A stretch of DNA of 64,000 bases from an uncultured Holophagaceae bacterium (GTDB taxonomy: Bacteria > Acidobacteriota > Holophagae > Holophagales > Holophagaceae), in the NCBI GenBank assembly GCA_903913215.1, contig CAIWKE010000011.1:62001-126000 (forward strand). Reading direction: 5' to 3'. Under the pieces are notes generated by a model. It had not been told where the DNA came from and ran no database searches. It was given only the letters and a program-made list of their open reading frames with translations. The position numbers and the translations under genes were made by a program. Shown one piece after another: positions 49,431-63,634 of the stretch (its first letter is position 1; every line of letters starts with the position of its first letter).

Positions 49431-49934
49431 ATGGCGAAGCTGCTGATGGAGGATGACCTCAACCGCCGCCTGGTGGCGATGCTGCAGGCGGATGGCCGCA
49501 TGAGCCATGCGGAGCTTGCGGAGCGCCTGGGCGTGAGCCGGCCCACCATCATCGACCGCGTGAAGCGCCTGGAGGCCGACGGCATCCTCAATGGCTACGC
49601 CGCACGCGTCAGCCCGGCGGCGGTGAACAAGCCCACGGTGGCCTTCGTGGCCGTGCGGTACAAGGACAACAACGAGGCCATCGAGCAGCGCTTCATCAAG
49701 GCCCTGGAAGACGAGCCCGACATCCTGGAGGCCCACACCATCGCTGGCGAGGACGCCCTGCTGCTGAAGATCGTGGCGGACACTCCCGCGGGCATCGCCG
49801 AGCGGCTGCGCCGCATCCGGGTGCTGGGTCCCATGGTGACCACGCGCACGACGGTGGTGCTGGAGACCCACTGGGAGAAGGCCGGTCCCAGCCCCTTCCC
49901 CATTGACGGTTCCGCCAAGAAGCCCAAGAAGTGA
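49431..49934 (+). CDS. Lrp/AsnC-family regulator
   Basis: This encodes 167 residues. An N-terminal helix-turn-helix (LNRRLVAMLQADGRMSHAEL, AERLGVSRPTIIDRVKRLEA) is followed by an AsnC effector domain (about 65-150: TVAFVAVRYKDNN, EPDILEAHTIAGEDALLLKI). An EamA exporter begins 16 nt downstream, so the regulator probably controls export of an amino acid it senses. The upstream region holds the hairpin element and AT-richer DNA with a possible -10 (CATACT). Confidence 0.92.
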   Translation: MAKLLMEDDLNRRLVAMLQADGRMSHAELAERLGVSRPTIIDRVKRLEADGILNGYAARVSPAAVNKPTVAFVAVRYKDNNEAIEQRFIKALEDEPDILEAHTIAGEDALLLKIVADTPAGIAERLRRIRVLGPMVTTRTTVVLETHWEKAGPSPFPIDGSAKKPKK

Positions 49935-49950
49935 TGCAGGTCCGCAGCTG

Positions 49951-50817
49951 ATGCTGGGGTGGCTCGCCTACCTAACCGTTGCCGTTGTCTGGGGTTCCAC
50001 CTACTTCGCCATCGCCCTGGGCCTGGAGTCCTTCACCCCTTACGGCATGGTGGCCCTGCGCTTCTCTCTCTCGGCGGTCCTGGCCCTGGGATTGGGCCGT
50101 GTGCGCCGGGAAGCTTGGCCCGCTGCCCGGGAAGTCCCACACCTGCTGATTGTGGGGGCACTTCTGCTGGGCGGCGCCAATGCCCTGGTCTCCTACGCGG
50201 AACTGCATGTCTCCTCGGGGCTGGCGGCGGTGCTGGGCGGCCTGGTGCCACTCTGGCTGGCGGTCTTCACCATGGCCAAGGAGCCCCTGGGCCCCAAGGG
50301 CTGGGCGGGGCTGGTGCTAGGCCTGGCGGGTGTGGCCGTGCTGGTCTGGCCCACCCAGGGGCTGCGGCTGCATGGGGGCGGTCTGGCGGCCATGATGCTG
50401 GCACCCCTGCTCTGGTCCTGGGGCACCCTGCACGGCAAGCAACATGTCCATGGCGGCGGCCTCATGACCAACGTGGGCATCCAGATGAGCATGGCGGCCC
50501 TCATGGGCCTGGTGGTGGCGCCCCTCTCGGGGGGTTACCTGCGCGGCCCCGTCACCCATAGGGCGCTCTTCGCTGTGGCCTACCTGGCCCTCTTCGGCTC
50601 CCTGCTGGCCTTCTCCGCCTACATCTACCTGGCCAAGGCCTGGCCGCCCGCCAAGATGGGCACCTATGCCTACCTGAACCCCCTGGTGGCGGTGCTCCTG
50701 GGGGGCCTCGTGCTGCACGAGCCCTTTGGTCCCCGCGGCTTCCTGGGCATGGTGATCATCCTGGCGGCGGTGGCCCTGGTGCAGCTGAGGCCCAAGGCCG
50801 TCGTGGCCGAAGGCTGA
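49951..50817 (+). CDS. EamA-family exporter next to Lrp regulator
   Basis: This is 288 residues from the ATG at 49951. It has ten membrane segments in two EamA repeats (AYLTVAVVWGSTYFAIALGL, MMLAPLLWSWGTLHGKQHVH). WGSTYFAI and the terminal ILAAVALVQLRPK resemble the RhtA/YdcZ-type amino-acid exporters. Export of an amino acid or its analogue is inferred from the Lrp-type neighbour. Confidence 0.88.
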   Translation: MLGWLAYLTVAVVWGSTYFAIALGLESFTPYGMVALRFSLSAVLALGLGRVRREAWPAAREVPHLLIVGALLLGGANALVSYAELHVSSGLAAVLGGLVPLWLAVFTMAKEPLGPKGWAGLVLGLAGVAVLVWPTQGLRLHGGGLAAMMLAPLLWSWGTLHGKQHVHGGGLMTNVGIQMSMAALMGLVVAPLSGGYLRGPVTHRALFAVAYLALFGSLLAFSAYIYLAKAWPPAKMGTYAYLNPLVAVLLGGLVLHEPFGPRGFLGMVIILAAVALVQLRPKAVVAEG

Positions 50818-50910
50818 GGGGCACCCGCTCATGGAACGAATCCTGCGGCTGGCCACGGCGTCCCAATCTATGCTTATGAAGGCCCATCTGCTGGCCGGGA
50901 AAGGTCGACC

Positions 50911-52341
50911 TTGACGCTTCCGATGATCATTCAAGGTGGTATGGGTGTGGGGATCTCGAACTGGACCCTCGCGAATGCGGTGTCGCGCCTCGGCCAGCTC
51001 GGGGTGGTCTCAGGCACGGTGCTGGATGTGATGCTGTCGCGCCGCCTTCAGGACGGTGACGAGGGGGGCCACATGCGGCGGGCGCTGAGCCACTTCCCGT
51101 TCCCGGCCATGGCCCAGCGTGTGCTTGAACGCCATTTTGTGGAGGGCGGTCGGCCTGCCGATGCACCCTACAAGGCCCTGCCGATGTACTCCAGGACTGG
51201 GTCGGCCCGGGAGCTGATGGAGCTCTGCATCGCCGGCAACTTCGTGGAGGTCTTCCTGGCCCGTGAAGGGCACGGGGGGCCGGTTGGCATCAACTACCTC
51301 GAGAAGATCCAGCTGCCCATCCTGCCCTCGATCTACGGCGCCATGCTCGCGGGCGTAGCGGTGGTCATCATGGGCGCAGGGATTCCCATCCGGATCCCTG
51401 GTGTGCTCGATGCCTTCGCACACCAGGCGGCGGCGGAGTACCCGCTGACCGTGACGGGCTCTGTCCCGGGCGAGGACACGCAAATGCGCTTCGACCCGGC
51501 GGACTGGAATGAAGGGGCCACCCCCGAGCTGCAGCGGCCCGCCTTCCTGCCGATCATCTCCTCCAACTCCCTGGCGCACACCCTCAGCCGCAAGGCGAAC
51601 GGGCGCATCGATGGCTTCATCGTGGAGGCCCCCACCGCCGGCGGTCACAATGCCCCGCCGCGCGGCAACCCTCCTCTCTCCGCAGAAGGCATGCCCGTCT
51701 ACGGGGCGCGCGACATGGTGGACCTGGCCAAGCTGCGGGAGCTGGGGCTGCCCTTCTGGTTGGCCGGAAGCCGGGGCACGGCCGAGGGCCTGCGCGAGGC
51801 CCTGGAGCTGGGCGCCGCGGGCATCCAGGTGGGTACCGCCTTCGCCTACTGCAATGAATCAGGACTGGAGCCCAGCACCCGGGCGCGGGTCCTGCGGCTC
51901 GCCGCTGCTGGTGGGGCGCGGGTGTTCACAGATCCCGTGGCTTCGCCCACGGGCTTTCCCTTCAAGGTCGTGCAGCTCGAGGGCACCCTGTCCAGCGAGG
52001 CGGAATACCTCGCCCGCACCCGCATCTGCGACCTGGGCTACCTGCGGGAGCCTTATCGCAAGGAGGATGGCAGCATCGGCTACCGCTGCGCCTCCGAGCC
52101 CATCCACCACTTCGTGGCCAAGGGCGGGCTGGAGGAAGGCGCCCTGGGACGGAAGTGCCTGTGCAACGCCCTCATGGCGGACGTGGGCATGCCGCAGATC
52201 CGCAAGGGGATCGCGGAAAAGACCCTGGTCACCTCCGGCGATGACGTGGCCGATATCGCCCGGTTCCTGCGGCCCGGCGCCGAGTCCTACAGCGCCGCGG
52301 ATGTCATTGCGCGGCTGCTGGAGCCCGCTGTTCCCTGCTGA
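50911..52341 (+). CDS. nitronate monooxygenase-family flavoprotein
   Basis: This is 476 residues from a TTG at 50911; an ATG at 50923 (MIIQGGMGVGISNW) is an alternative. It is an FMN-binding TIM barrel: IIQGGMGVGISN, DGFIVEAPTAGGHNAPPRGN with the catalytic-type His, PFWLAGSRGTAEG and AAGIQVGTAFAYCNESGL. It is longer than classical nitronate monooxygenases and has a C-terminal extension with Cys (GRKCLCNALMADVGM). The substrate is not known; the family also includes enoyl-ACP-reductase-like members. Its end overlaps the convergent lipoprotein gene by 38 nt. Confidence 0.85.
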   Translation: MTLPMIIQGGMGVGISNWTLANAVSRLGQLGVVSGTVLDVMLSRRLQDGDEGGHMRRALSHFPFPAMAQRVLERHFVEGGRPADAPYKALPMYSRTGSARELMELCIAGNFVEVFLAREGHGGPVGINYLEKIQLPILPSIYGAMLAGVAVVIMGAGIPIRIPGVLDAFAHQAAAEYPLTVTGSVPGEDTQMRFDPADWNEGATPELQRPAFLPIISSNSLAHTLSRKANGRIDGFIVEAPTAGGHNAPPRGNPPLSAEGMPVYGARDMVDLAKLRELGLPFWLAGSRGTAEGLREALELGAAGIQVGTAFAYCNESGLEPSTRARVLRLAAAGGARVFTDPVASPTGFPFKVVQLEGTLSSEAEYLARTRICDLGYLREPYRKEDGSIGYRCASEPIHHFVAKGGLEEGALGRKCLCNALMADVGMPQIRKGIAEKTLVTSGDDVADIARFLRPGAESYSAADVIARLLEPAVPC

Positions 52342-53056
52342 GCACGTGTCCCCGCGGGAACTCCGGCATGGCCTCCAAGTCCTTGAACAGTTCCTTCCGG
52401 ACCTTGTGCAGGCTGGCCTGGAGCTGCACTTCTCGACGCTCCTGATCGGACTTGGGGTACTCAGCCAGTTCCTGTCTGGCCCAGAGCACGTAGTAGGTCT
52501 CCTCCCAGAGGGGTTTCTCCACACCGCGGCGGCGCAGCTGCGCCTCTACCACGGCCGGGGAGGACCAGCGGCCCATGAGCAGGGAACCGCCGATCCAGAA
52601 GGCGCTCTCCTCCACGAGTTCGTAGGCGCCCAGGCCCAGGGCCAACCGCGGGTTGTGGGCAATCAGGCCCGTGCCCACACCCCAGGCCACGCCGCTGAGG
52701 ATGCCCAGGGCGATGTATTTGGCCCGCACCTCGCCGAGGCTGCTGACCTTCAGGTCGAGGCTCAGCCCGACTGCGGGATCCAGGGCCAAGCCCCGAGCTG
52801 CAGCCTCCCGGCGCAGGTCCGCCTCGAATGTGGCGCGGTGGCGTTCCAGGGCCTGGCTGCGCGCCTCCGGAGAATTCGCCTCTGAGCCAGACCAGAGCTG
52901 GCTCAGCCTGTGGCTGTGGTCCTCCATCTGCACCGCCAGCTGGAGGGCCGGGCGACTTCGATCCAGGGGCAGGTCTGCCAGGGGCGAGCGGCAGGCCAGG
53001 CCCAGCAGGGCCAGGAGAATTAGGCAGAGTGGCGCTGTACGGTGAGAAGGGTTCAT
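52304..53056 (-). CDS. lipoprotein of unknown function
   Basis: This is 250 residues from the ATG at 53056, which starts a lipoprotein signal (LCLILLALLGLACRS, Cys22). The mature part is helical and charged (VQMEDHSHRLSQLWSGSEAN, ALERHRATFEADLRREAAAR), with a hydrophobic stretch (YIALGILSGVAWGVGTGLIA). I do not recognise a family. The frame is open upstream to a 173-nt gap where a CRSC motif and a membrane-like stretch can be read but no start codon before 53140. It overlaps the 3' end of the nitronate monooxygenase-like gene. Confidence 0.6.
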   Translation of the reverse strand: MNPSHRTAPLCLILLALLGLACRSPLADLPLDRSRPALQLAVQMEDHSHRLSQLWSGSEANSPEARSQALERHRATFEADLRREAAARGLALDPAVGLSLDLKVSSLGEVRAKYIALGILSGVAWGVGTGLIAHNPRLALGLGAYELVEESAFWIGGSLLMGRWSSPAVVEAQLRRRGVEKPLWEETYYVLWARQELAEYPKSDQERREVQLQASLHKVRKELFKDLEAMPEFPRGHVLSREQRAPAAAQ

Positions 53057-53229
53057 GGCCGAGGCGCCAGAGCCTGGGCGGGCCGGACGCCCCAAGAGTC
53101 GGGCGAAGAGGAAATCCATGAGCAGCATGAGACTGAGCATGATGGCGCTGAAGGCGAAGCGGTAGTCCCAGTTGCCCGGGAAGTGTCGCTGCAGCCTGCC
53201 AGAGCAACTCCGGCAGGCTTCGGCGGAGC

Positions 53230-54441
53230 TCAGGTCGCGGGGTCCGCTGGCTGCTGGAAGAGCTTCCAGGCCACGGCTCCCAGCGCCAGCACTGCCAGCC
53301 CCGCGACCCAGGGCATCCAGGGCCGCGCCCGCTCATCGGCGCGCAACGGGCGGAGCAGACCCTGCGGATCAGGCTCCGCAGGCCCCAGGCTCAGGGGAGC
53401 GCTGCGAACCAGGCTGCTGAGGGAGGGCAGGGCGCCCAGGTTGCCCGGTGCGAGCTTGGGTTCACCACCGAGGTGCAGGACATAGACCTGGCCCGCTTCT
53501 ATGGGGATGAGAAGGGTCTGGCGCCGCACCAGGATGCGGGCCGACTGAGGCGTGGCCCCCGGGGGCAGGTGGATCTTGAGGCTCCGGGCCAGGAGGGGCT
53601 GGAGGGCGATGCGCGAGGCGCGGCTGCCCAGGGCCGGGAGGTTCCACACCAAGTCCGCAGAGGGCCAGACACGGCCCGACTCGGGGCCATCTCCTGCCTG
53701 GATCTCCGGTTGGATTGGCGCGGCAGGGGGCGTCAGTTCCAGGTCCAGGCCCACGATCCGCTGGGTTTCCGGCAGGCTCAGGCGCCAGGTCTGGGGCTGG
53801 CCGGGCTCAGGCGCGAGTACCGTGTCCAGGGCCAGCTCGGCTTCCAAGGCCTCGGGCCGGGTCTCCGCCTGCACCCGCAGTCCCCGGATGCGCGGCGCCG
53901 TGCCTTGGGTGGCCACCAGGCTGAGGCGGTAGCGGTCCCCGTCCCAGGGCAGCTGCAGGGTGCTGCGGGAGCCGGCGCTGCCCAGGTTGTAGAGGTGGAA
54001 GGGGGCGGGCGGATCCAGGGCCACGAAGGCCCCACCCGGGCGTTGGCGATCGGCACGGACCTGGACAACCCAAGGCGCTTCGCCTTCCAGATCCAAGTCC
54101 AGGGCCAGGGCCTCCCGCTCGCCCACCTGCCAGCCCTCGGGCAGGCGGAGGCTGAACTCCACGGTGGGATGGCCCAGGGCGTCCCTGCCCGTGAGCAGAT
54201 GTTCCAGGGGCAGAGAGCGCGTGTCCCAGAGACCTTCGCGTACCAGGGAGAAGGGCACGCTGCGACCGCTCCCGTCGCTGATCCAGGCTCCCTCCAGCTG
54301 CCGCTGGGCGGCGGCATCCAGGGGCAGGCGGGCCCAGCCACTGGTGGGGCTGGGGCTGATGGGGCGACGCTGCAGGGTGGAGCGATCCTCCCGGGTGCAG
54401 GCCAGGCTCAGGAGGAGGAGCAAGGGCAGGGCGGCCTTCAT
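53230..54441 (-). CDS. DUF3999-like membrane-anchored lipoprotein
   Basis: This is 403 residues from the ATG at 54441. A lipobox (LLLSLACT, Cys15) is followed by two beta-rich domains (FVALDPPAPFHLYNLGSAGS, SLPETQRIVGLDLELTPPAA, IEAGQVYVLHLGGEPKLAPG). A C-terminal membrane segment (WVAGLAVLALGAVAWKLFQQ) ends it. This is the DUF3999 layout, which commonly accompanies DUF2339, as it does here with a 4-nt start/stop overlap. The function is unknown; the pair probably forms an envelope complex. Confidence 0.8.
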   Translation of the reverse strand: MKAALPLLLLLSLACTREDRSTLQRRPISPSPTSGWARLPLDAAAQRQLEGAWISDGSGRSVPFSLVREGLWDTRSLPLEHLLTGRDALGHPTVEFSLRLPEGWQVGEREALALDLDLEGEAPWVVQVRADRQRPGGAFVALDPPAPFHLYNLGSAGSRSTLQLPWDGDRYRLSLVATQGTAPRIRGLRVQAETRPEALEAELALDTVLAPEPGQPQTWRLSLPETQRIVGLDLELTPPAAPIQPEIQAGDGPESGRVWPSADLVWNLPALGSRASRIALQPLLARSLKIHLPPGATPQSARILVRRQTLLIPIEAGQVYVLHLGGEPKLAPGNLGALPSLSSLVRSAPLSLGPAEPDPQGLLRPLRADERARPWMPWVAGLAVLALGAVAWKLFQQPADPAT

Positions 54442-56153
54442 GAAGGCTCCTGAGTCCGCCGTCGGTTGGCGAGGATGGCCGCGGCCATGCCGATGCCGCC
54501 CACGCCCAGGAAGGCCAGGGCCCGCAGGGGCGTGTCCGCACCGTCCAGGTCTGCGGCGATGAGCTTGAAGCTGGCCAGGCCCATCCAGGCGTAGCCGGCG
54601 ATCATCCATGCCTTCCGCGTCTCGTCCCGCAGTCTGAGGCTGCGCATCCACTGCCAGGCGCCCGAGAGTGCCAGCACCAGGGTGATGGACACCGAAGCGC
54701 CCCGGGAGAAGCCGTAGGAGTGGCCTGCGGGGACCTGGAGTCGTTGCACCAGGTGGGCCGCCTCCAGGGCCAGGGTGAGGTTCGCGGTGAGCTCCAGCGC
54801 CAGGAAGGAGATCCCCCGCAAGGGACCACCGCCCCGGAGCAGAAGGAACCAGGCCAGAGAGACCAGGGCCCCCTCGGCGAAGGAGCTGTTGAAGAAGGGC
54901 AGGGCGCCGCTGTAAGAGCTGCCGATCAGGCCATCGACATGGTGGAAGGCCCAACGCAGGCTGGTCAGGAGGGCCAGGGCGGCGCCCAGCCAGCGCAGCG
55001 AAGTGGCCTCCTCCGTGTGCTCCGCTGTCCGGGCGCGATCCGCGGCCCAGGCCAGGCTGAGGGCGAAGATGCCCCACACGGGTCCCACCCAGCGCCAGGC
55101 CAAGGCCACGGGCACGGCCAGGCTCAGGTGGCCCGCCGCCAGGGCCAGCAGGCCCCAGTCCGCGCGGCGGTTGCCCAGGCGGTCCCGCAGGGGCTTCACC
55201 AAGACCAGGTTCAGGGCCGCCAGGGCCAGCACCGGCAGGGCAAAGGTCTCCACGCTGAGGTCGCCCCGCTTCCAGAGCAGCCAGCCGTAGGCGGTGGTCA
55301 GCACCGAGGCCACCAGCCAGAGGGCCGTGGGTGTACCGGGCTTTTCTTCGGTGTGGGGCAGCCAGGCCCAGAGGCCCGCCAACAGCAGGTGAAGGAGCAG
55401 CAGGCCGCCCAGGGTGGGCAGATCCGCGCGGGTCGATTCGAGGCAGGCGGCCAGGAGCCACAGCCACACGCCCAGCAGGGCGGTCCAGCGGGCCCCATGC
55501 CAGGCCCCGCCGCTGCGGGCCAGGTAGGGCACGGCCAGGGCGGCGGTCATGAGCACCGCCAGGTAGAGGGCCAGGGCCACTTCGTGGTGGCCGCCCTGGC
55601 TGAAGACCAAGGGCGCCACCAGGCCCGAGACGAGGGCCACCGTGAGTGCGGCGCCGCTCCTGACCCGGGCGGCCAGGGCCCCAGCTACGAGCGTCAGGAG
55701 AGCCGTCGCCGCGAGGCCCAGGACGGCAGGGAAAAAGTGGTAGCTCATGGCCCCGGCCCGGAAGGCGAACTGCAGGGTTCCCAGACCCGCCAGGAGCAGA
55801 GCCACGCCCAGCCTGGGTGTGCCGCGCAGCATCAGGCGGGCCGCGAAGGCCGCGATGCCACCGCCCGCCAGCAGGCCCAGGACAAAGCGCAGTTCCGGCT
55901 CCACCCAGCCTTGCTGAACCGCCCAGTGGAAGAAGAAGATGGCGCCGATGAGGAAGATGGAAGCAGCGATGCCCGCGATCCAGACCACGGGGGAGATCTC
56001 CCGGCCTGGCGCCGCGGGCTTCGGGATGGGTGGCGGCAGGCGGGGCGGGGTCGCGGCAGGGCGCTGGCCCGCACCCTGCTGGAGGAGCCAGGCTACCTGG
56101 GCTTCCAGGCGGGTGACGCGCTCGGCCAGATCCTGAGGTTCTTGGGATTCCAT
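54438..56153 (-). CDS. DUF2339 polytopic membrane protein
   Basis: This encodes 571 residues. A short coiled coil (ERVTRLEAQVAWLLQQG) and Pro-rich stretch lead to about 14-16 membrane segments, the DUF2339 pattern. LVSGLVAPLVFSQGG is typical. It is translationally coupled to the DUF3999 gene. The function is unknown. Two palindromic repeat elements lie just upstream. Confidence 0.85.
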   Translation of the reverse strand: MESQEPQDLAERVTRLEAQVAWLLQQGAGQRPAATPPRLPPPIPKPAAPGREISPVVWIAGIAASIFLIGAIFFFHWAVQQGWVEPELRFVLGLLAGGGIAAFAARLMLRGTPRLGVALLLAGLGTLQFAFRAGAMSYHFFPAVLGLAATALLTLVAGALAARVRSGAALTVALVSGLVAPLVFSQGGHHEVALALYLAVLMTAALAVPYLARSGGAWHGARWTALLGVWLWLLAACLESTRADLPTLGGLLLLHLLLAGLWAWLPHTEEKPGTPTALWLVASVLTTAYGWLLWKRGDLSVETFALPVLALAALNLVLVKPLRDRLGNRRADWGLLALAAGHLSLAVPVALAWRWVGPVWGIFALSLAWAADRARTAEHTEEATSLRWLGAALALLTSLRWAFHHVDGLIGSSYSGALPFFNSSFAEGALVSLAWFLLLRGGGPLRGISFLALELTANLTLALEAAHLVQRLQVPAGHSYGFSRGASVSITLVLALSGAWQWMRSLRLRDETRKAWMIAGYAWMGLASFKLIAADLDGADTPLRALAFLGVGGIGMAAAILANRRRTQEPS

Positions 56154-56240
56154 GGCAACTCCATACGGAAGCGTATGGAATCATGCGGACCTTGCCCGGC
56201 CCTGTCAAGCGATGCAATTGATGGGGTGCGCGTCAAACCC

Positions 56241-56358
56241 GAGCGCGGCTTTGCCGCGAGTGGGCGCCTGGGAGCAGCGCCTAGCGTTGCGTCAGCTGGA
56301 GGCTCGCAGCGCGCCCCGAGGTCCTGGCGGCGCATGCGCCGCTAGGGGAACCCCCGGA
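56241..56358 (+). repeat. dispersed palindromic element, long copy D
   Basis: GAGCGCGGCTTTGCCGCGAG and the end GGAACCCCCGGACTAG match copies A-C, but the middle is longer (CGCCTAGCGTTGCGTC, GGCGGCGCATGCGCCGC). Together with copy C it fills most of the 291-nt gap 56154-56444, which has no gene. Confidence 0.6.
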
Positions 56359-56374
56359 CTAGAGGCAAGCCCGC

Positions 56375-56438
56375 GAGCAGCTTTGCTGCGAGTGGGCGCG
56401 GGGGCCCGGGGGTGTGCGCGCAGCGCGGAACCCCCGGA
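56375..56438 (+). repeat. dispersed palindromic element, copy C
   Basis: GAGCAGCTTTGCTGCGAG is followed by GTGGGCGCGGGGG and a perfect 8-bp stem CCGGGGGT/ACCCCCGG around GTGCGCGCAGCGCGGA. The first hairpin has changed on both sides (GCAGC/GCTGC against GCGGC/GCCGC in copies A and B), keeping pairing. It ends beside the GGDEF gene stop. Confidence 0.75.
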
Positions 56439-56444
56439 CTAGAT

Positions 56445-57902
56445 TTACCCCACGACGCGGTTGCGACCCTGGGCCTTGGCGAGATAGAGAGCCTTGTCCG
56501 AGCGGGACATGAGCTGCTCGATGCTGTCTTCGGGGCCGTTCCAGGAGGCGAGGCCGATGCTGAGGGTCACGCGGTCCCCAGCGGGCAGGCCTGGGACGGA
56601 GTCCAGGATGACATCCTCGCGCAGGCGTTCGGCCATGGCGCGGGCTCCTTCCATATCGGTCTGGGGGCAGTAGATGAGGAATTCCTCGCCGCCGATACGG
56701 CCCAGCTGGTCAACCTTGCGCAGCCCGAAGGACATGCGCTGGGCCATGACGCTGAGTACCTGATCGCCCACTGGATGGCCATAGCGGTCATTCACGGCCT
56801 TGAAGTGGTCTAGGTCTACCAGCATGATGGCCAGCCCCTGCTTGAAGCGCCCGCACTGGTCCAGCTCCATGGCGAGCATGTCGAGGATGTGCTTGCGATT
56901 GAAGAGGCCCGTGAGGGGATCCCGGATGGCCTGATGGTAGAGGCGCAGGCGGGAGTCCTCGAGGCTGAGCAGGCGCCCCAGCTCTTCGGCGGCGATCTCA
57001 AAGAGCCGCTCGAACTCATCCGCGGAGCGGCGCTCGGTGATGAAGCCCAGGGCCCCCAGCACGGGGTAGCCCGGTGTGGTGGCCTGGTAGATGCGGAGGG
57101 TCGGATCCCGCAGGCTGCGGCGGCGTTCATCGTCATCCGAGGCGGGGTGCCACTGGCAGCCGGCGGAGAGGTGGAAGCAACTCTGCTCCTGAAGCGCCTT
57201 TTCCAAGTCCAGCCGATCTTCCTCGGAGACCGAAGAACCATGGACGCCCCGGCACCAGACGCCGTCCTCGCCCAGGTAGTTCACCATCAGGGCGCCAGGC
57301 AGCACCAGTTCCTGCAGGATCTCAACGAAGCCCTGGATGAGGCGGGCGGTGTCGTGTTCAGCGGTGTAGAGCCGGGCGATGGAGTCACGCAGGGCGGTCT
57401 CCAGCAGGCGCTGCTCCAGGGCCGAGGCCAGGCGGTGCTGGATGGCCTCCACGCCGAAGTTGTCCTGGGCCAGCTTGGGCACCGCGTGGGCGGCCCGGGG
57501 CTTGTCGGACTGAGCGGCCAGTGCTGCGGCGACCTCGACCACGTGGTCCAGGTCGCGTCCCTTGACGAGGAAGCGGTCTGCACCGCAGGTCTTGGCCCAG
57601 AACCGGGCCAGGCCAGCCCCCTGGGCGGTCAGCAGCAGGACCGGCAGGTGGCGTGTGGCGCGGTCATCTTTTACGAGGCGGCAGAACTGATAGCCGTCCA
57701 GCAAGGGCATGACGCAATCGCTGACCACCACGTCCGGGAACTCTGTGGCCAGGACGATGAGGGCCTCGGCGCCATTGCGGGCCTCAATGGTGAGGTGACC
57801 GTGACGCTGGAAGAGATGTCGCAGCAAGCTCAGCTGGATGGGGTTGTCATCCACCAAGAGGACCAGAAGCTGCTGAGCATTCTTCGGTACAGGAATTGTC
57901 AT
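56445..57902 (-). CDS. receiver-GGDEF diguanylate cyclase
   Basis: This encodes 485 residues. The receiver (1-125) has D18/D19, phosphoacceptor D62 (VSDCVMPLLDG), T92 and K114. A middle GAF-like region (about 155-315) leads to the cyclase: RDPLTGLFNRKHILD, then the active site GGEEF (404-408). An inhibitory I-site RxxD (RKVD, 395-398) sits five residues before it, so product feedback is likely. It should make cyclic di-GMP in response to a kinase that is not visible here. Confidence 0.93.
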   Translation of the reverse strand: MTIPVPKNAQQLLVLLVDDNPIQLSLLRHLFQRHGHLTIEARNGAEALIVLATEFPDVVVSDCVMPLLDGYQFCRLVKDDRATRHLPVLLLTAQGAGLARFWAKTCGADRFLVKGRDLDHVVEVAAALAAQSDKPRAAHAVPKLAQDNFGVEAIQHRLASALEQRLLETALRDSIARLYTAEHDTARLIQGFVEILQELVLPGALMVNYLGEDGVWCRGVHGSSVSEEDRLDLEKALQEQSCFHLSAGCQWHPASDDDERRRSLRDPTLRIYQATTPGYPVLGALGFITERRSADEFERLFEIAAEELGRLLSLEDSRLRLYHQAIRDPLTGLFNRKHILDMLAMELDQCGRFKQGLAIMLVDLDHFKAVNDRYGHPVGDQVLSVMAQRMSFGLRKVDQLGRIGGEEFLIYCPQTDMEGARAMAERLREDVILDSVPGLPAGDRVTLSIGLASWNGPEDSIEQLMSRSDKALYLAKAQGRNRVVG

Positions 57903-59531: not shown

Positions 59532-60068
59532 CTATTCCACCTTTATCGGGAAGGGCTTGATGCCGGCCTTCTTGAGTTTCTCAGCGGCCTTGTCGATGGT
59601 GGTGCGGTCGGCGCTGTGGAGGCGGATCTTCAGCTGGCCCTTTTCCTTGACGGTGACGGTGCTGAATCCCTCGGCCTTGGCCTTGTCGGCGATGCGCTTG
59701 GCCTCGGCGGCGTCCGCCGTGGCGACCAGTTGCAGGGTCCAAAGCTCAGCGGTGGCTTCCGCTGGTTTCTCCGCGGGCTTCTCCTCGGGCTTGGGGGCCG
59801 CGGCTTCAGGTTTGACCGCCTCAACCTTGGCGACGGGCACGAGCTTGTCGCTGCCCTCCCCCTCGAAGAGCTTCAGCTGATCCACCAGGGGCTCGGGCAG
59901 ATCCTTGAGGTTCTCCTCTGTGCCCCGCTGGGAGGGGCGATGCAGGGCCGCGCTCTGCTTGCCCACCTGCACGCCCAGCACGAAGGCCATGGTGAGCAGG
60001 GCCACGCCCACACCACCCACCCAGAGGATGGATTGGCTGCTGATGCTGATCTGGTCGCGCTGATTCAT
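59532..60068 (-). CDS. SPOR-domain membrane protein
   Basis: This encodes 178 residues. A single N-terminal membrane segment (SILWVGGVGVALLTMAFVLG) is followed by a Pro/Glu/Ala-rich linker (KPEEKPAEKPAEATAELW). A C-terminal SPOR-type domain (about 105-178) begins WTLQLVATADAAEAKRIADK and ends IKPFPIKVE. SPOR domains bind denuded peptidoglycan at the septum. It stops 1 nt from the convergent NFACT stop. Confidence 0.85.
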   Translation of the reverse strand: MNQRDQISISSQSILWVGGVGVALLTMAFVLGVQVGKQSAALHRPSQRGTEENLKDLPEPLVDQLKLFEGEGSDKLVPVAKVEAVKPEAAAPKPEEKPAEKPAEATAELWTLQLVATADAAEAKRIADKAKAEGFSTVTVKEKGQLKIRLHSADRTTIDKAAEKLKKAGIKPFPIKVE

Positions 60069-60131: not shown

Positions 60132-60185
60132 AGGGGCTGTAACGGAACACCGATCCTAATCACTGATGATTCCGTAACGGCCGCT
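60132..60185. repeat. TTACGGAAT hairpin element, copy 2
   Basis: Read on the minus strand: AGCGGCCGTTACGGAATCAT, then CAGTG, ten bases, and TTCCGTTACAGCCCCT. It matches 49232-49284 in both arms and in the loop start. One arm lies inside the last codons of the KS-beta-like gene, so the gene's stop falls within the element. Confidence 0.65.
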
Positions 60186-61271
60186 AACCTCTTCAAGCAA
60201 GGCCGCGAACTGGGTCCCCGCGCTGGCCGGGGCGGTGATGAGAACCTGCGGAGAAGCTTCCAGGAGGGCCGCCGCCAGGAGTTGGCCGCCGGAGCCCGCG
60301 AACTCGCCCCAGAGCTGCTTGGGGTGCAGGGCGGCGGGCCACTGGGGCTGCCGGGCGGCCAGGCGGGCTTCGGCAATATCCAGGTTCGGCCGGCCGTTGC
60401 CGCCGCCGATGCGGCGCTGCGGGGAAGTAACCATCAGAGACTCCGCGCTGGCTGCCAGGGCCTCGGCCCGGTCCTCGCGCCCATCGCCTGCGGCGGAGCG
60501 GCACGCCAGTCCCGCCAGGGTGGCCCGGGGGCGGATGCCTCGGCCTGCGACCGAGGCGCGAGTTTCCACCAGGAAGGCCTGCGCTCCCTCGCCGGGCAGG
60601 AAGCCGGTGCCCGCGTCCACCACGGGATCCCCGTGCCGGGCCAGGAAACCTGCCCGGCCGCAGAGGTCCAGCAGCAGCGGGAAGAGCCCGTCCGTGCCCA
60701 CCACCAGGGCCGCGTCCACGAGGCCCAGGCGCAGCCAGCGGCAGGCCTGCTCCAGGGCGCCGAAGGTGGCATTCTCCCGGTCGACGAAGGTGGCGCTGGG
60801 GCCCTTCAGTCCGAAGGCCAGGGCCAGGTGGCCACTGGCAGCATTCGCTACGGTGTTGGGAAAGATCAGGGGCGACGCGCCCTCGGGGCCGCGCAGCAGG
60901 TAGGGGCGCATGAAGGCCTCGCTGGCTTCGCTGCCCCCGCTCTGGGTCCCCACGGCCACGGCGATGCGGTCGCCCAGGCTTCGGGGCTCCAGGCCCGCGT
61001 CCAGGAAGGCCTGGTGGGCGGCGCCCCAGGCATAGCGGCAGGCCCGGTCCAGGCGCCGCAGCTGCATGGGTGGGATGATGCCCGTGGGATTGAAGGCTGT
61101 GCAGGCGGCACCCCGCCCTGGGCCCAGGGCCTCGGGCAACTCCGCGAAGCAGGGCCTCCCGGAAGCCAGGCTGGCGCGGGCCGCCTCGATCCCGTCTCCG
61201 CAGGGGAACACCAGGCCGAGGCCAGAGATGACGAGGTCGGTTGGACCATGGGGTGTCGGCTGTGGAGTCAT
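60156..61271 (-). CDS. ketosynthase-beta-like protein lacking catalytic residues
   Basis: This is 371 residues from the ATG at 61271, which overlaps the upstream KS stop (ATGA). It has the thiolase fold of beta-ketoacyl-ACP synthases (VISGLGLVFPCGDGIEAARA, FPNTVANAASGHLALAFGLK). The active Cys position holds E166 (FVDRENATFG). The two His positions hold N292 (GGGNGRPN) and E323 (LWGEFAG). Such dead partners are known as KS-beta or chain-length factors in type II polyketide and aryl-polyene systems, where they pair with an active KS. The partner here is the next gene. Confidence 0.85.
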   Translation of the reverse strand: MTPQPTPHGPTDLVISGLGLVFPCGDGIEAARASLASGRPCFAELPEALGPGRGAACTAFNPTGIIPPMQLRRLDRACRYAWGAAHQAFLDAGLEPRSLGDRIAVAVGTQSGGSEASEAFMRPYLLRGPEGASPLIFPNTVANAASGHLALAFGLKGPSATFVDRENATFGALEQACRWLRLGLVDAALVVGTDGLFPLLLDLCGRAGFLARHGDPVVDAGTGFLPGEGAQAFLVETRASVAGRGIRPRATLAGLACRSAAGDGREDRAEALAASAESLMVTSPQRRIGGGNGRPNLDIAEARLAARQPQWPAALHPKQLWGEFAGSGGQLLAAALLEASPQVLITAPASAGTQFAALLEEVSGRYGIISD

Positions 61272-62449
61272 GCGCCACTCCAACGGCCCAGCAGGAGGCT
61301 CACGTTGTTGCCCCCAAAGGCAAACGCGTTCACCAGGGCCGCGCGGAGGCGCCGCTGTTTGGCCACCAGCGGTGTGCAGTCCAGGTCACAGAGGGGGTCG
61401 GGGTCATCCAGCCGGAGGGTGGGGCTGACCACCTGGTCCCGCAGGGCCAGGATGGCGGCGGCGGCACCGAAGGCTCCGGCGGCTCCCAAGGTGTGCCCGA
61501 ACTGGCTCTTGGTGCTGGTGACGGAGACGGCGTCGGCGGCAGGCCCCAGGGCCCGGCGGATGGCCAGGCACTCAGCCCCGTCATTGGCAGGAGTCGCGGT
61601 GCCGTGGGCGGAGACCAGGTCCACCTGGTCCGCGTCCAGGCGGCCTTGGCGCAGGGCCATGGCCAGGGCCCTGGCGGCGCCTTCGCCTTCTGGATGGGGG
61701 GCCGTGGGGTGGTGGGCGTCCATGCTGGCGCCGTAACCCAGGACCTCCGCGAAGATGGTGGCGCCCCGGGCCTGGGCGCGGTCCAGGGGCTCCAGCAGGA
61801 GTTGGACGGCGCCTTCGCCCAGGTTCAGGCCCGCCCGGTCCCGGCTGAAGGGGCGGCACTTCCGGGGATCTACGGCCTTGAGGCAAGAGAAGCCCCCGTA
61901 GGTGGTTCGGCATAGGCTTTCGGCGCCCCCGGCCACGGCGACGTCTAGTTCGCCCGCGACAATGCGCTCCCAGGCCTGGCCCAGGGCCAGGAGACTGGAG
62001 GAGCAGGCGTTCATGAGAGTGGCCCGGGGCCCGCAGGCGCCCAGGCGCCGGGCCAGGGCGTCCGCCACATTGCAGGGGGTCTGGTAGGCAGGCTCCAGGG
62101 CCCGGCCTCGGCCTCCGGCCAGGCGCTCCTCCAGGTACGCCTCAGCCACGGGCAGGCCGCTGGTGCCCGCGCCCTGGAAGACGCCGATGCGCCCCGGATC
62201 GCCCGGGGGCGTGAAGCCGTCCAGGGCCTCCTCCAGGGCCAGCAGGGCCATGCGCTCACAGAGGGTCTGGTGCCGCAGGGCTGCCAGGGGCACTTGGCCG
62301 GCGATCTGGGCTGGTTCCAGGGGCAGGTTCAGGCGGGTGAGGGGCCCCAGGCCATCCCGGCCCTCCAGCATGGCCGCCCAGGTGGTCTCCCGGCCCGGAG
62401 CCAGGGAGGAGACCATGCCGAAACCCGTGACCACCACCCGCCGATTCAT
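61268..62449 (-). CDS. beta-ketoacyl-ACP synthase (KS-alpha)
   Basis: This encodes 393 residues. The catalytic set is intact: C149 (LMNACSSSLLALG), H282 (SAHGTATPAND), H319 with K314 (TSTKSQFGHTLGAAGA). It is FabF-like and should condense ACP-bound acyl units with malonyl-ACP. It overlaps the dehydratase stop upstream and the KS-beta-like start downstream by 4 nt each, so the three are translationally coupled. It is probably a dedicated heterodimer partner rather than the housekeeping FabF. Confidence 0.92.
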   Translation of the reverse strand: MNRRVVVTGFGMVSSLAPGRETTWAAMLEGRDGLGPLTRLNLPLEPAQIAGQVPLAALRHQTLCERMALLALEEALDGFTPPGDPGRIGVFQGAGTSGLPVAEAYLEERLAGGRGRALEPAYQTPCNVADALARRLGACGPRATLMNACSSSLLALGQAWERIVAGELDVAVAGGAESLCRTTYGGFSCLKAVDPRKCRPFSRDRAGLNLGEGAVQLLLEPLDRAQARGATIFAEVLGYGASMDAHHPTAPHPEGEGAARALAMALRQGRLDADQVDLVSAHGTATPANDGAECLAIRRALGPAADAVSVTSTKSQFGHTLGAAGAFGAAAAILALRDQVVSPTLRLDDPDPLCDLDCTPLVAKQRRLRAALVNAFAFGGNNVSLLLGRWSGA

Positions 62450-62853
62450 AGGCGCTTCACCAGCAGGGTGGCGGTGCAGAGGTCCCGGTCCTCGCAGCGC
62501 ACGGTGCCTTTGACCTTCATGAGGCCCCCAAAACTGCCCTCGGCGCTGACTTCCAGGCGGAGGCGGTCCCCCGGGAAGGCTGGAGCCTTGAAGCGGGCAT
62601 CCTGGACCCCAGCCAGGAAGATGGCGGCGCCATGCAGGGATTCCGCCTCCAGGAAGCCCCCGGCCTGGGCCAGCATCTCCAGCAGGAGGACGCCGGGGAC
62701 CAGGGGGCGGCCCTCGAAGTGACCCTGGAGGTAGGGCTCGCCGAAGGTGACCAACTTCTCCGCCAGCACCCGCACCCCGGGTTCGCGCTCCAGGACCCGA
62801 TCCACCAGGAGGAAGGGGTAGCGGTGCGGCAGGTGGCCTGGGATATCGGTCAT
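62446..62853 (-). CDS. FabZ-like 3-hydroxyacyl-ACP dehydratase
   Basis: This encodes 135 residues with the hot-dog fold. The start motif HRYPFLLVDRV and active residues H45 (YLQGHF) and E59 (PLVPGVLLLEMLAQ) are intact. It removes water from 3-hydroxyacyl-ACP. It begins 7 nt after the ACP gene ends and is coupled to the KS-alpha gene. In this setting it would dehydrate the product of the KS pair after a ketoreductase that is not encoded here. Confidence 0.92.
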   Translation of the reverse strand: MTDIPGHLPHRYPFLLVDRVLEREPGVRVLAEKLVTFGEPYLQGHFEGRPLVPGVLLLEMLAQAGGFLEAESLHGAAIFLAGVQDARFKAPAFPGDRLRLEVSAEGSFGGLMKVKGTVRCEDRDLCTATLLVKRL

Positions 62854-62860
62854 GAAGCGC

Positions 62861-63118
62861 CTAGGCCTTGGCGTGCTCGGCGATGAAGTCCGTCAGGGCC
62901 TGGACTGACTTGAAGGCCTTGAGGCCCGCGGCCTCGTCCTCAATCTTCACGCCGAAGACCTGCTCGATGCCCAGGACCAGCTCCAGGGCATCGATGGAAT
63001 CCAGGCCCAGGCCGTCCCCGAAGAGGGGGGCCCCGTCCTCGATGTCGTCGGGGGCCATGTCCTCAAGCTTGAGCCGCTCGATGATCATCTCTTTGACGCG
63101 CAGCTTGAGGTCGCTCAT
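62861..63118 (-). CDS. acyl carrier protein
   Basis: This encodes 85 residues. The phosphopantetheine site is S41 in LGLDSIDALEL. Acidic helix 2 (IDALELVLGIEQVF) suits ACP docking to synthases. The sequence differs from the standard housekeeping AcpP (for example PDDIEDGAPLFGDGLG). It is the first gene of the four-gene cassette and divergent from nuoA. Confidence 0.93.
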   Translation of the reverse strand: MSDLKLRVKEMIIERLKLEDMAPDDIEDGAPLFGDGLGLDSIDALELVLGIEQVFGVKIEDEAAGLKAFKSVQALTDFIAEHAKA

Positions 63119-63253
63119 GGGTTTCCTGGAAAAAAGGGGTCAAAGGGATTCTATCCTGGGAGGGCTCCCGAAGCCTTGTGATCTTGACACGATAGCGGTC
63201 CCGCCAAAGGGCGCTAAGCTGGTGGATCGCGGAATCCTCCGCCCGAGAGCGCC

Positions 63254-63634
63254 ATGGCCAATCCCGCATCGCCCTTCCTGTCGGTCCTCATCCTCATGCT
63301 GGTCGCCGCCGTGACGGCTGTCGCCATCCTTATCCTGTCCGGCAAGCTGCTGACGATCTGGAAGCCGAAGAACGCCCAGGCGGCCAAGCTGCGGGTCTAC
63401 GAGTGCGGCGTGCCGCCCGTCCAGACCGGGGCCCGGCACAAGTACTCGGTGAAATTCTATCTGACCGCCATGCTCTTCATCCTGTTCGACGTGGAAGCGG
63501 CCTTCCTGCTCCCCTGGGCGGTGAACTACAAGCAGGCCCTATGGACCTTCGGGGCCATGCTGAGCTTCATGGCCACCCTCCTCGTGGGCTTTGTCTACGC
63601 CTGGGGCAAGGGTGCCTTCGAGTGGGAGCGCTGA
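63254..63634 (+). CDS. nuoA: NADH-quinone oxidoreductase subunit A
   Basis: This encodes 126 residues with three membrane segments. It is the NuoA subunit of complex [21 protein letters not shown] and [20 protein letters not shown] contain the invariant ECG loop and the acidic residues in TM2. nuoB follows after 1 nt, so this is the start of the nuo operon running off the right edge. Confidence 0.95.

Follow-up and report, generated by a model that had tools for sequence, protein, structure and literature searches.

Our data suggest that four adjacent genes of an uncultured Holophagaceae bacterium encode a dedicated type II polyketide synthase (PKS) that is reduced to a minimum and belongs to the highly reducing (polyene) lineage, and we consider this reading probable. 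At its core, an active ketosynthase (KSα) would be paired with a chain-length factor (CLF), whereas FabD, a FabG-type reductase and release enzymes would be borrowed. This cassette most likely builds an unusual polyunsaturated chain apart from ordinary fatty acids, and it is its kinship with other systems that suggests a polyunsaturated product. The window, which is the whole stretch of DNA that was analysed (64,000 nucleotides), belongs to a 3.9 Mb genome that is 95% complete. The relevant features are as follows:

62861..63118, minus strand: acyl carrier protein (ACP), 85 aa, with Ser41 in GLDSIDALEL; ApeE-type (NCBIfam NF006617 / PRK09184)
62446..62853, minus strand: FabZ-like 3-hydroxyacyl-ACP dehydratase, 135 aa, with His45/Glu59 (NF000582, PF07977)
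61268..62449, minus strand: KSα, active ketosynthase, 393 aa, with Cys149/His282/His319
60156..61271, minus strand: KSβ, chain-length-factor-like, 371 aa from the ATG, with Glu166 for Cys, Asn292 for His and Glu323 for His
63119..63253, no strand: intergenic stretch between the cassette and the divergent nuoA, probable promoter region
59532..60068, minus strand: SPOR-domain gene (PF05036), neighbour outside the cassette, which adjoins nuoA in cassette-less genera
63254..63634, plus strand: nuoA, neighbour outside the cassette and first gene of the nuo operon, with conserved synteny

ACP, FabZ, KSα and KSβ form a tight minus-strand operon, and Pfam and NCBIfam searches agree on all four protein families. 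An earlier note on this DNA had named Ser41 of the ACP, His45/Glu59 of the dehydratase and Cys149/His282/His319 of KSα as functional residues and had described all three catalytic positions of KSβ as changed (Glu166, Asn292, Glu323). We found each of these residues at these numbers. The note had also reported overlaps of 4 nt between the three enzyme genes. This holds for FabZ/KSα (62446-62449) and KSα/KSβ (61268-61271), both of which overlap by ATGA, but ACP and FabZ are separated by a 7-nt gap. The KSα/KSβ overlap of 4 nt is kept in all orthologous loci examined (22/22), and for KSβ the reading of the open frames leaves a TTG at position 61283 open as alternative start. As had been stated before, the cassette includes neither reductase nor transferase: we detected no reductase, malonyltransferase or ligase in or beside it, and its flanks are made up by the SPOR-domain gene and nuoAB. 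A promoter scan of 63119..63253 did not yield a match to the sigma-70 consensus.

When we scored the ACP with NF006617, we obtained 73.3 bits (cut-off 70), and its Ser41 is invariant in 30/30 family orthologues. With an HMM of the cassette ACP family, E. coli ApeE reached 85.6 bits, ApeF 28.5 bits and the housekeeping ACP of the host 29.7 bits. The names ApeE and ApeF follow PMC8253772, which reports that E. coli no longer produces aryl polyenes when apeE is deleted, whereas deletion of apeF does not have this effect. The dehydratase is recognized by the FabZ model NF000582 (129.8 bits, cut-off 113) and by PF07977, and its profile did not match the E. coli APE dehydratases. KSα carries the Cys-His-His set that characterizes the active KS of a KS-CLF type II PKS core, and C149, H282 and H319 are invariant in 51/51 family orthologues. 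It scored 326 with the FabF model TIGR03150, which is under the cut-off of 494, and its dN/dS against seven congeners is 0.15-0.23. The predicted structure of KSα is only moderate (pLDDT 72), and its best PDB match is chain B of 9s5h.

In KSβ, E166 and E323 are invariant in 51/51 family sequences, and two distant homologues that belong to another family deviate at these positions. Position 292 is mainly occupied by N (29) or S (20) in the family orthologues. The dN/dS values of KSβ against seven congeners (0.26-0.43) indicate purifying selection, and therefore KSβ is not a decaying pseudogene, although it evolves faster than KSα. Its TIGR03150 score is 84 (cut-off 494), and it does not match the C-terminal ketoacyl-synthase model because this half of the protein has diverged. 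The AlphaFold model of KSβ (pLDDT 84.8, pTM 0.87) retains the whole thiolase/ketosynthase fold with both halves. Foldseek/VIA ranked FabFs, Iga11 and Act KS/CLF nearly equally for KSβ, and thus the fold cannot tell a CLF from a KS.

Phylogenetic trees place the KSα of the family, other acidobacterial KSα and E. coli ApeO in one clade (100/99), to which the active half of a fused Streptomyces KS attaches (99/95). In a tree that left out the characterised CLFs Act and Iga12, family and acidobacterial KSβ make up a clade of full-length dead KS (100/98). The dead half of this Streptomyces protein is its sister (100/97), and this grouping is of the CLF type. KSβ sits on a long branch (about 1.0), and the support for the deep relationships among the KS families is weak. 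AU tests rejected a grouping with FabF for both KSβ (p 0.0009) and KSα (p 0.0008), and the idea that KSβ is a local or recent duplicate of KSα was rejected as well (AU p 8e-9). These data are in line with the earlier note, which had assigned the cassette to the type II polyketide/aryl-polyene kind and not to ordinary FAS: the FabF grouping is rejected, the KSα clade contains ApeO and the dead KS form a separate clade.

To follow the distribution of the cassette, we surveyed the relatives of the host, a check that had been proposed before. Here, we found that the cassette is widespread: KSβ orthologues (57-76% identity) are present in 52 of 77 genomes and in 7/11 genera of the host's family. 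KSα follows the same genus pattern, and across the genera of the family both proteins are present or absent together. This distribution would fit the family Holophagaceae with the genus Geothrix. In the few genomes with a KSα match and no KSβ match, KSα is partial or located at or near a contig end. The order nuoB-nuoA / ACP-FabZ-KSα-KSβ / SPOR is kept in the loci read, with few insertions. In members of three cassette-less genera (g10, g14, g16), the SPOR gene directly adjoins nuoA, which leaves a clean empty site. The four genes therefore constitute a discrete unit, which was acquired or lost as a whole and is otherwise transmitted by vertical descent. We had considered the SPOR gene as fifth member of the cassette, but it remains beside nuoA when the cassette is missing and was thus rejected. 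Taken together, KSβ lies outside FabF, the cassette occurs in relatives and the changed residues stand, so that none of the findings which the earlier note had named as speaking against its reading was made.

The strongest alternative to a dedicated PKS is a specialised branch of fatty acid synthesis similar to FabN/FabO or FabA/FabB, which would provide mono-unsaturated or special membrane fatty acids and in which KSβ would tune the length. A dehydratase that passes the FabZ model, an operon without KR or starter enzyme, the vertical inheritance of the locus and a genome with just one further FabF and one further FabZ would all fit such a branch. However, neither KS behaves like a housekeeping FabF, since the TIGR03150 scores stay under the cut-off and the AU tests reject this grouping, and KSα also sits away from FabB in the tree. 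Moreover, the ACP is ApeE-type and not AcpP-type, and whole genera of the family live without the cassette. To our knowledge, FAS needs no dead KS partner, and we therefore consider this alternative rather unlikely.

Among the known systems, the cassette resembles the aryl-polyene core (ApeO-ApeC, ApeE; E. coli CFT073/Xenorhabdus/Acinetobacter) in having a KSα of the ApeO clade, an ApeE-type ACP and a dead KS partner, and homologous acidobacterial KSα/KSβ pairs occur in APE-like clusters. In contrast, its KSβ retains both thiolase halves over a full length of 371 aa whereas ApeC is half-size (240 aa), its dehydratase is FabZ-type, and it lacks the ApeH ligase, the ApeQ reductase, the second KS ApeR, an exporter, Lol proteins, an acyltransferase and a glycosyltransferase. 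ApeH, ApeQ, ApeR, MMPL/Lol export genes and acyltransferases of this kind are absent from the window, and a search of the host genome did not reveal such a set. Because of the full-size CLF and the missing tailoring genes, the cassette is not an aryl-polyene cluster, and it probably works like the core of one.

More distant relatives were obtained by a KSβ profile search of 396 genomes of the phylum. In every family locus that we read, and likewise in 20 distant acidobacterial loci, a KS homologue without nucleophile abuts KSα. This is the arrangement of KS-CLF systems, and most of the distant loci involve the same ACP type. In three further distant loci, an ACP is encoded nearby or another KS lies no more than several kb away. 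The distant KSβ carry Glu at the Cys position in nearly all cases (rarely Asp or Gln), in an (R/K/M)E motif, and nearly all of them have 'GE' at the second His. Many of these loci hold an AMP ligase, a lipid A-type acyltransferase, an MMPL exporter, GT2, a methyltransferase and a FabG-type reductase, and they match the aryl-polyene lipid gene set described in PMC8253772. In another acidobacterial family, one locus (L118) shows the same order ACP-DH-KSα-KSβ. Adjacent KS and CLF-like genes of Acidobacteria have been catalogued before and were often scored as FAS-like, without a function (PMC10132072).

An active KS with a full-length dead partner also occurs in Streptomyces, in highly reducing type II PKS such as the ishigamide type (Iga11-Iga12) and a plasmid cluster of CP108998, and the structure search with KSβ retrieved Iga11 among other proteins. 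When we scanned named genomes with KSβ, a distant Streptomyces KS was the sole match. The plasmid cluster of CP108998 contains a single 788-aa CDS (L204:7726-10092), in which an active KS is fused to a dead one that carries 'GE' in the position of the second His, and this fusion falls on both of our clades. As the best indirect evidence, it leads us to infer a KSα/KSβ heterodimer for the cassette. However, the Streptomyces cluster has its own FabD, ACP, FabG, two dehydratases, KASIII, AMP ligase and transporter, whereas the cassette consists of four genes only. The closest solved pair is PDB 9s5h/9s5i, which involves an active KS (chain B) and a KS (chain C) that, like KSβ, lacks the Cys and has GE in the position of the second His. 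Both chains measure about 410 aa, and their sequence similarity to the cassette is only moderate. Our literature searches retrieved no paper naming 9s5h and no paper joining Geothrix with polyene or ketoacyl topics.

For the proposed PKS, the following reaction sequence may be envisaged. KSα and KSβ would form a KS-chain-length-factor heterodimer, in which KSα would condense malonyl-ACP onto the growing chain held by the ApeE-type ACP of the cassette. KSβ, in which Glu has replaced both the nucleophile and the second His, would shape the chain tunnel and set the length. Each condensation would be followed by reduction of the keto group through a borrowed SDR, either FabG or a different one, and then by dehydration through the cassette FabZ. 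Since the set does not include an enoyl reductase, double bonds would accumulate, and together with the dedicated ACP this makes a polyunsaturated chain the simplest outcome. The earlier note had also thought of a branched chain, for which the evidence offers no support. Malonyl loading (FabD), priming, release and export would be supplied by genes elsewhere, and borrowing of FabD and FabG is plausible.

Besides a single additional FabF, the host genome carries one other FabA/FabZ-fold gene (contig C21), a true FabG (contig C36) and phosphopantetheinyl transferases. An aryl-polyene-like tailoring set was not found in it. As trans-acting ligase, the best AMP-ligase match (28%) is located among sugar-biosynthesis-like genes, and as trans-acting exporter an MMPL match (31%) lies beside dnaK/dnaJ; both candidates are unconvincing. 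On contig C39 (G000:C39, about 49500-57300; L202), there is a sugar-biosynthesis-like locus with KASIII, AMP ligase, a FabG-like SDR, an aminotransferase and a WxcM-like protein, which is possibly an acyl-sugar pathway. About 10-15 kb before the window (G000:C11:47299-51759), we observed an open frame of 1557 aa that matches AMP ligases and phosphopantetheinyl transferases.

As a further alternative, the cassette might act like the AmcF/AmcG/AmcE system of cispentacin, a short-chain type II PKS-like pathway with one or two condensations, in which the partner would aid cyclisation and the FabZ fold would catalyse a non-standard reaction. We regard this as quite improbable. The AmcB, AmcE and AmcF models do match, and cispentacin formation is likewise assumed to rely on FabD for malonyl loading (PMC10698177), but the matches are weak, with scores far under the cut-offs (AmcF 202 vs 325; AmcE 54 vs 140; AmcB 39 vs 80). 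In addition, an adenylating enzyme, an aminotransferase and a thioesterase are absent nearby, and KSβ keeps the full KS fold whereas AmcG is without some CLF secondary structures (PMC10698177).

Two other explanations carry very little weight. The larger kin clusters of other acidobacteria, the several genera that lost or never had the cassette and the faster evolution of KSβ might suggest a relic of an aryl-polyene-like cluster that persists without a dedicated product, but intact and invariant catalytic residues, dN/dS values well under 1 and the gene order and overlaps kept in the genera examined make this highly improbable. It is equally hard to conceive KSβ as a primer-making, KSQ-like decarboxylase instead of a chain length factor: the Glu at the nucleophile position is invariant in the family and conserved in most distant KSβ, but a KSQ has Gln for Cys and keeps the catalytic His, whereas KSβ has Glu166 and has lost both His, which malonyl decarboxylation presumably requires (Asn292 or Ser, Glu323).

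Highly reducing type II PKS are already known as a kind, and the pared-down four-gene form described here is a new variation: a core reduced to ACP, dehydratase, KS and dead partner, which descends vertically beside the respiratory nuo operon. This vertical retention beside nuo makes a product of core physiology plausible, rather than an optional pigment. More tentatively, and as a possibility we rate clearly below the PKS assignment itself, this core-genome PKS of an acidobacterial family might make an undescribed polyunsaturated lipid, pigment or redox-active compound with housekeeping FAS partners, and the dead KS with the fixed Glu might represent a CLF class across the phylum. The full-length dead-KS clade with its conserved Glu at the Cys position is spread across Acidobacteriota, and our literature search retrieved no functional test of a CLF role for it. 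A clean natural comparison for finding the product by lipidomics is offered by genera that carry the block and genera in which this very site is empty.

Two smaller observations concern related dead KS. Orphan dead-KS genes (L081:9475-10425 and L082) with 38-43% identity to KSβ over part of the sequence were detected in two genomes that belong to a different family within this class. They have Leu/Phe at the Cys position, a shortened C-terminal half and no adjacent KSα, and were not counted as cassette members. Finally, two small acidobacterial loci (L120:7463-9092, L122:7068-9918) consist of KSα, KSβ and a 4HBT thioesterase, with no ACP or tailoring genes close by, and they are a second reduced form of the KSα-KSβ pair.
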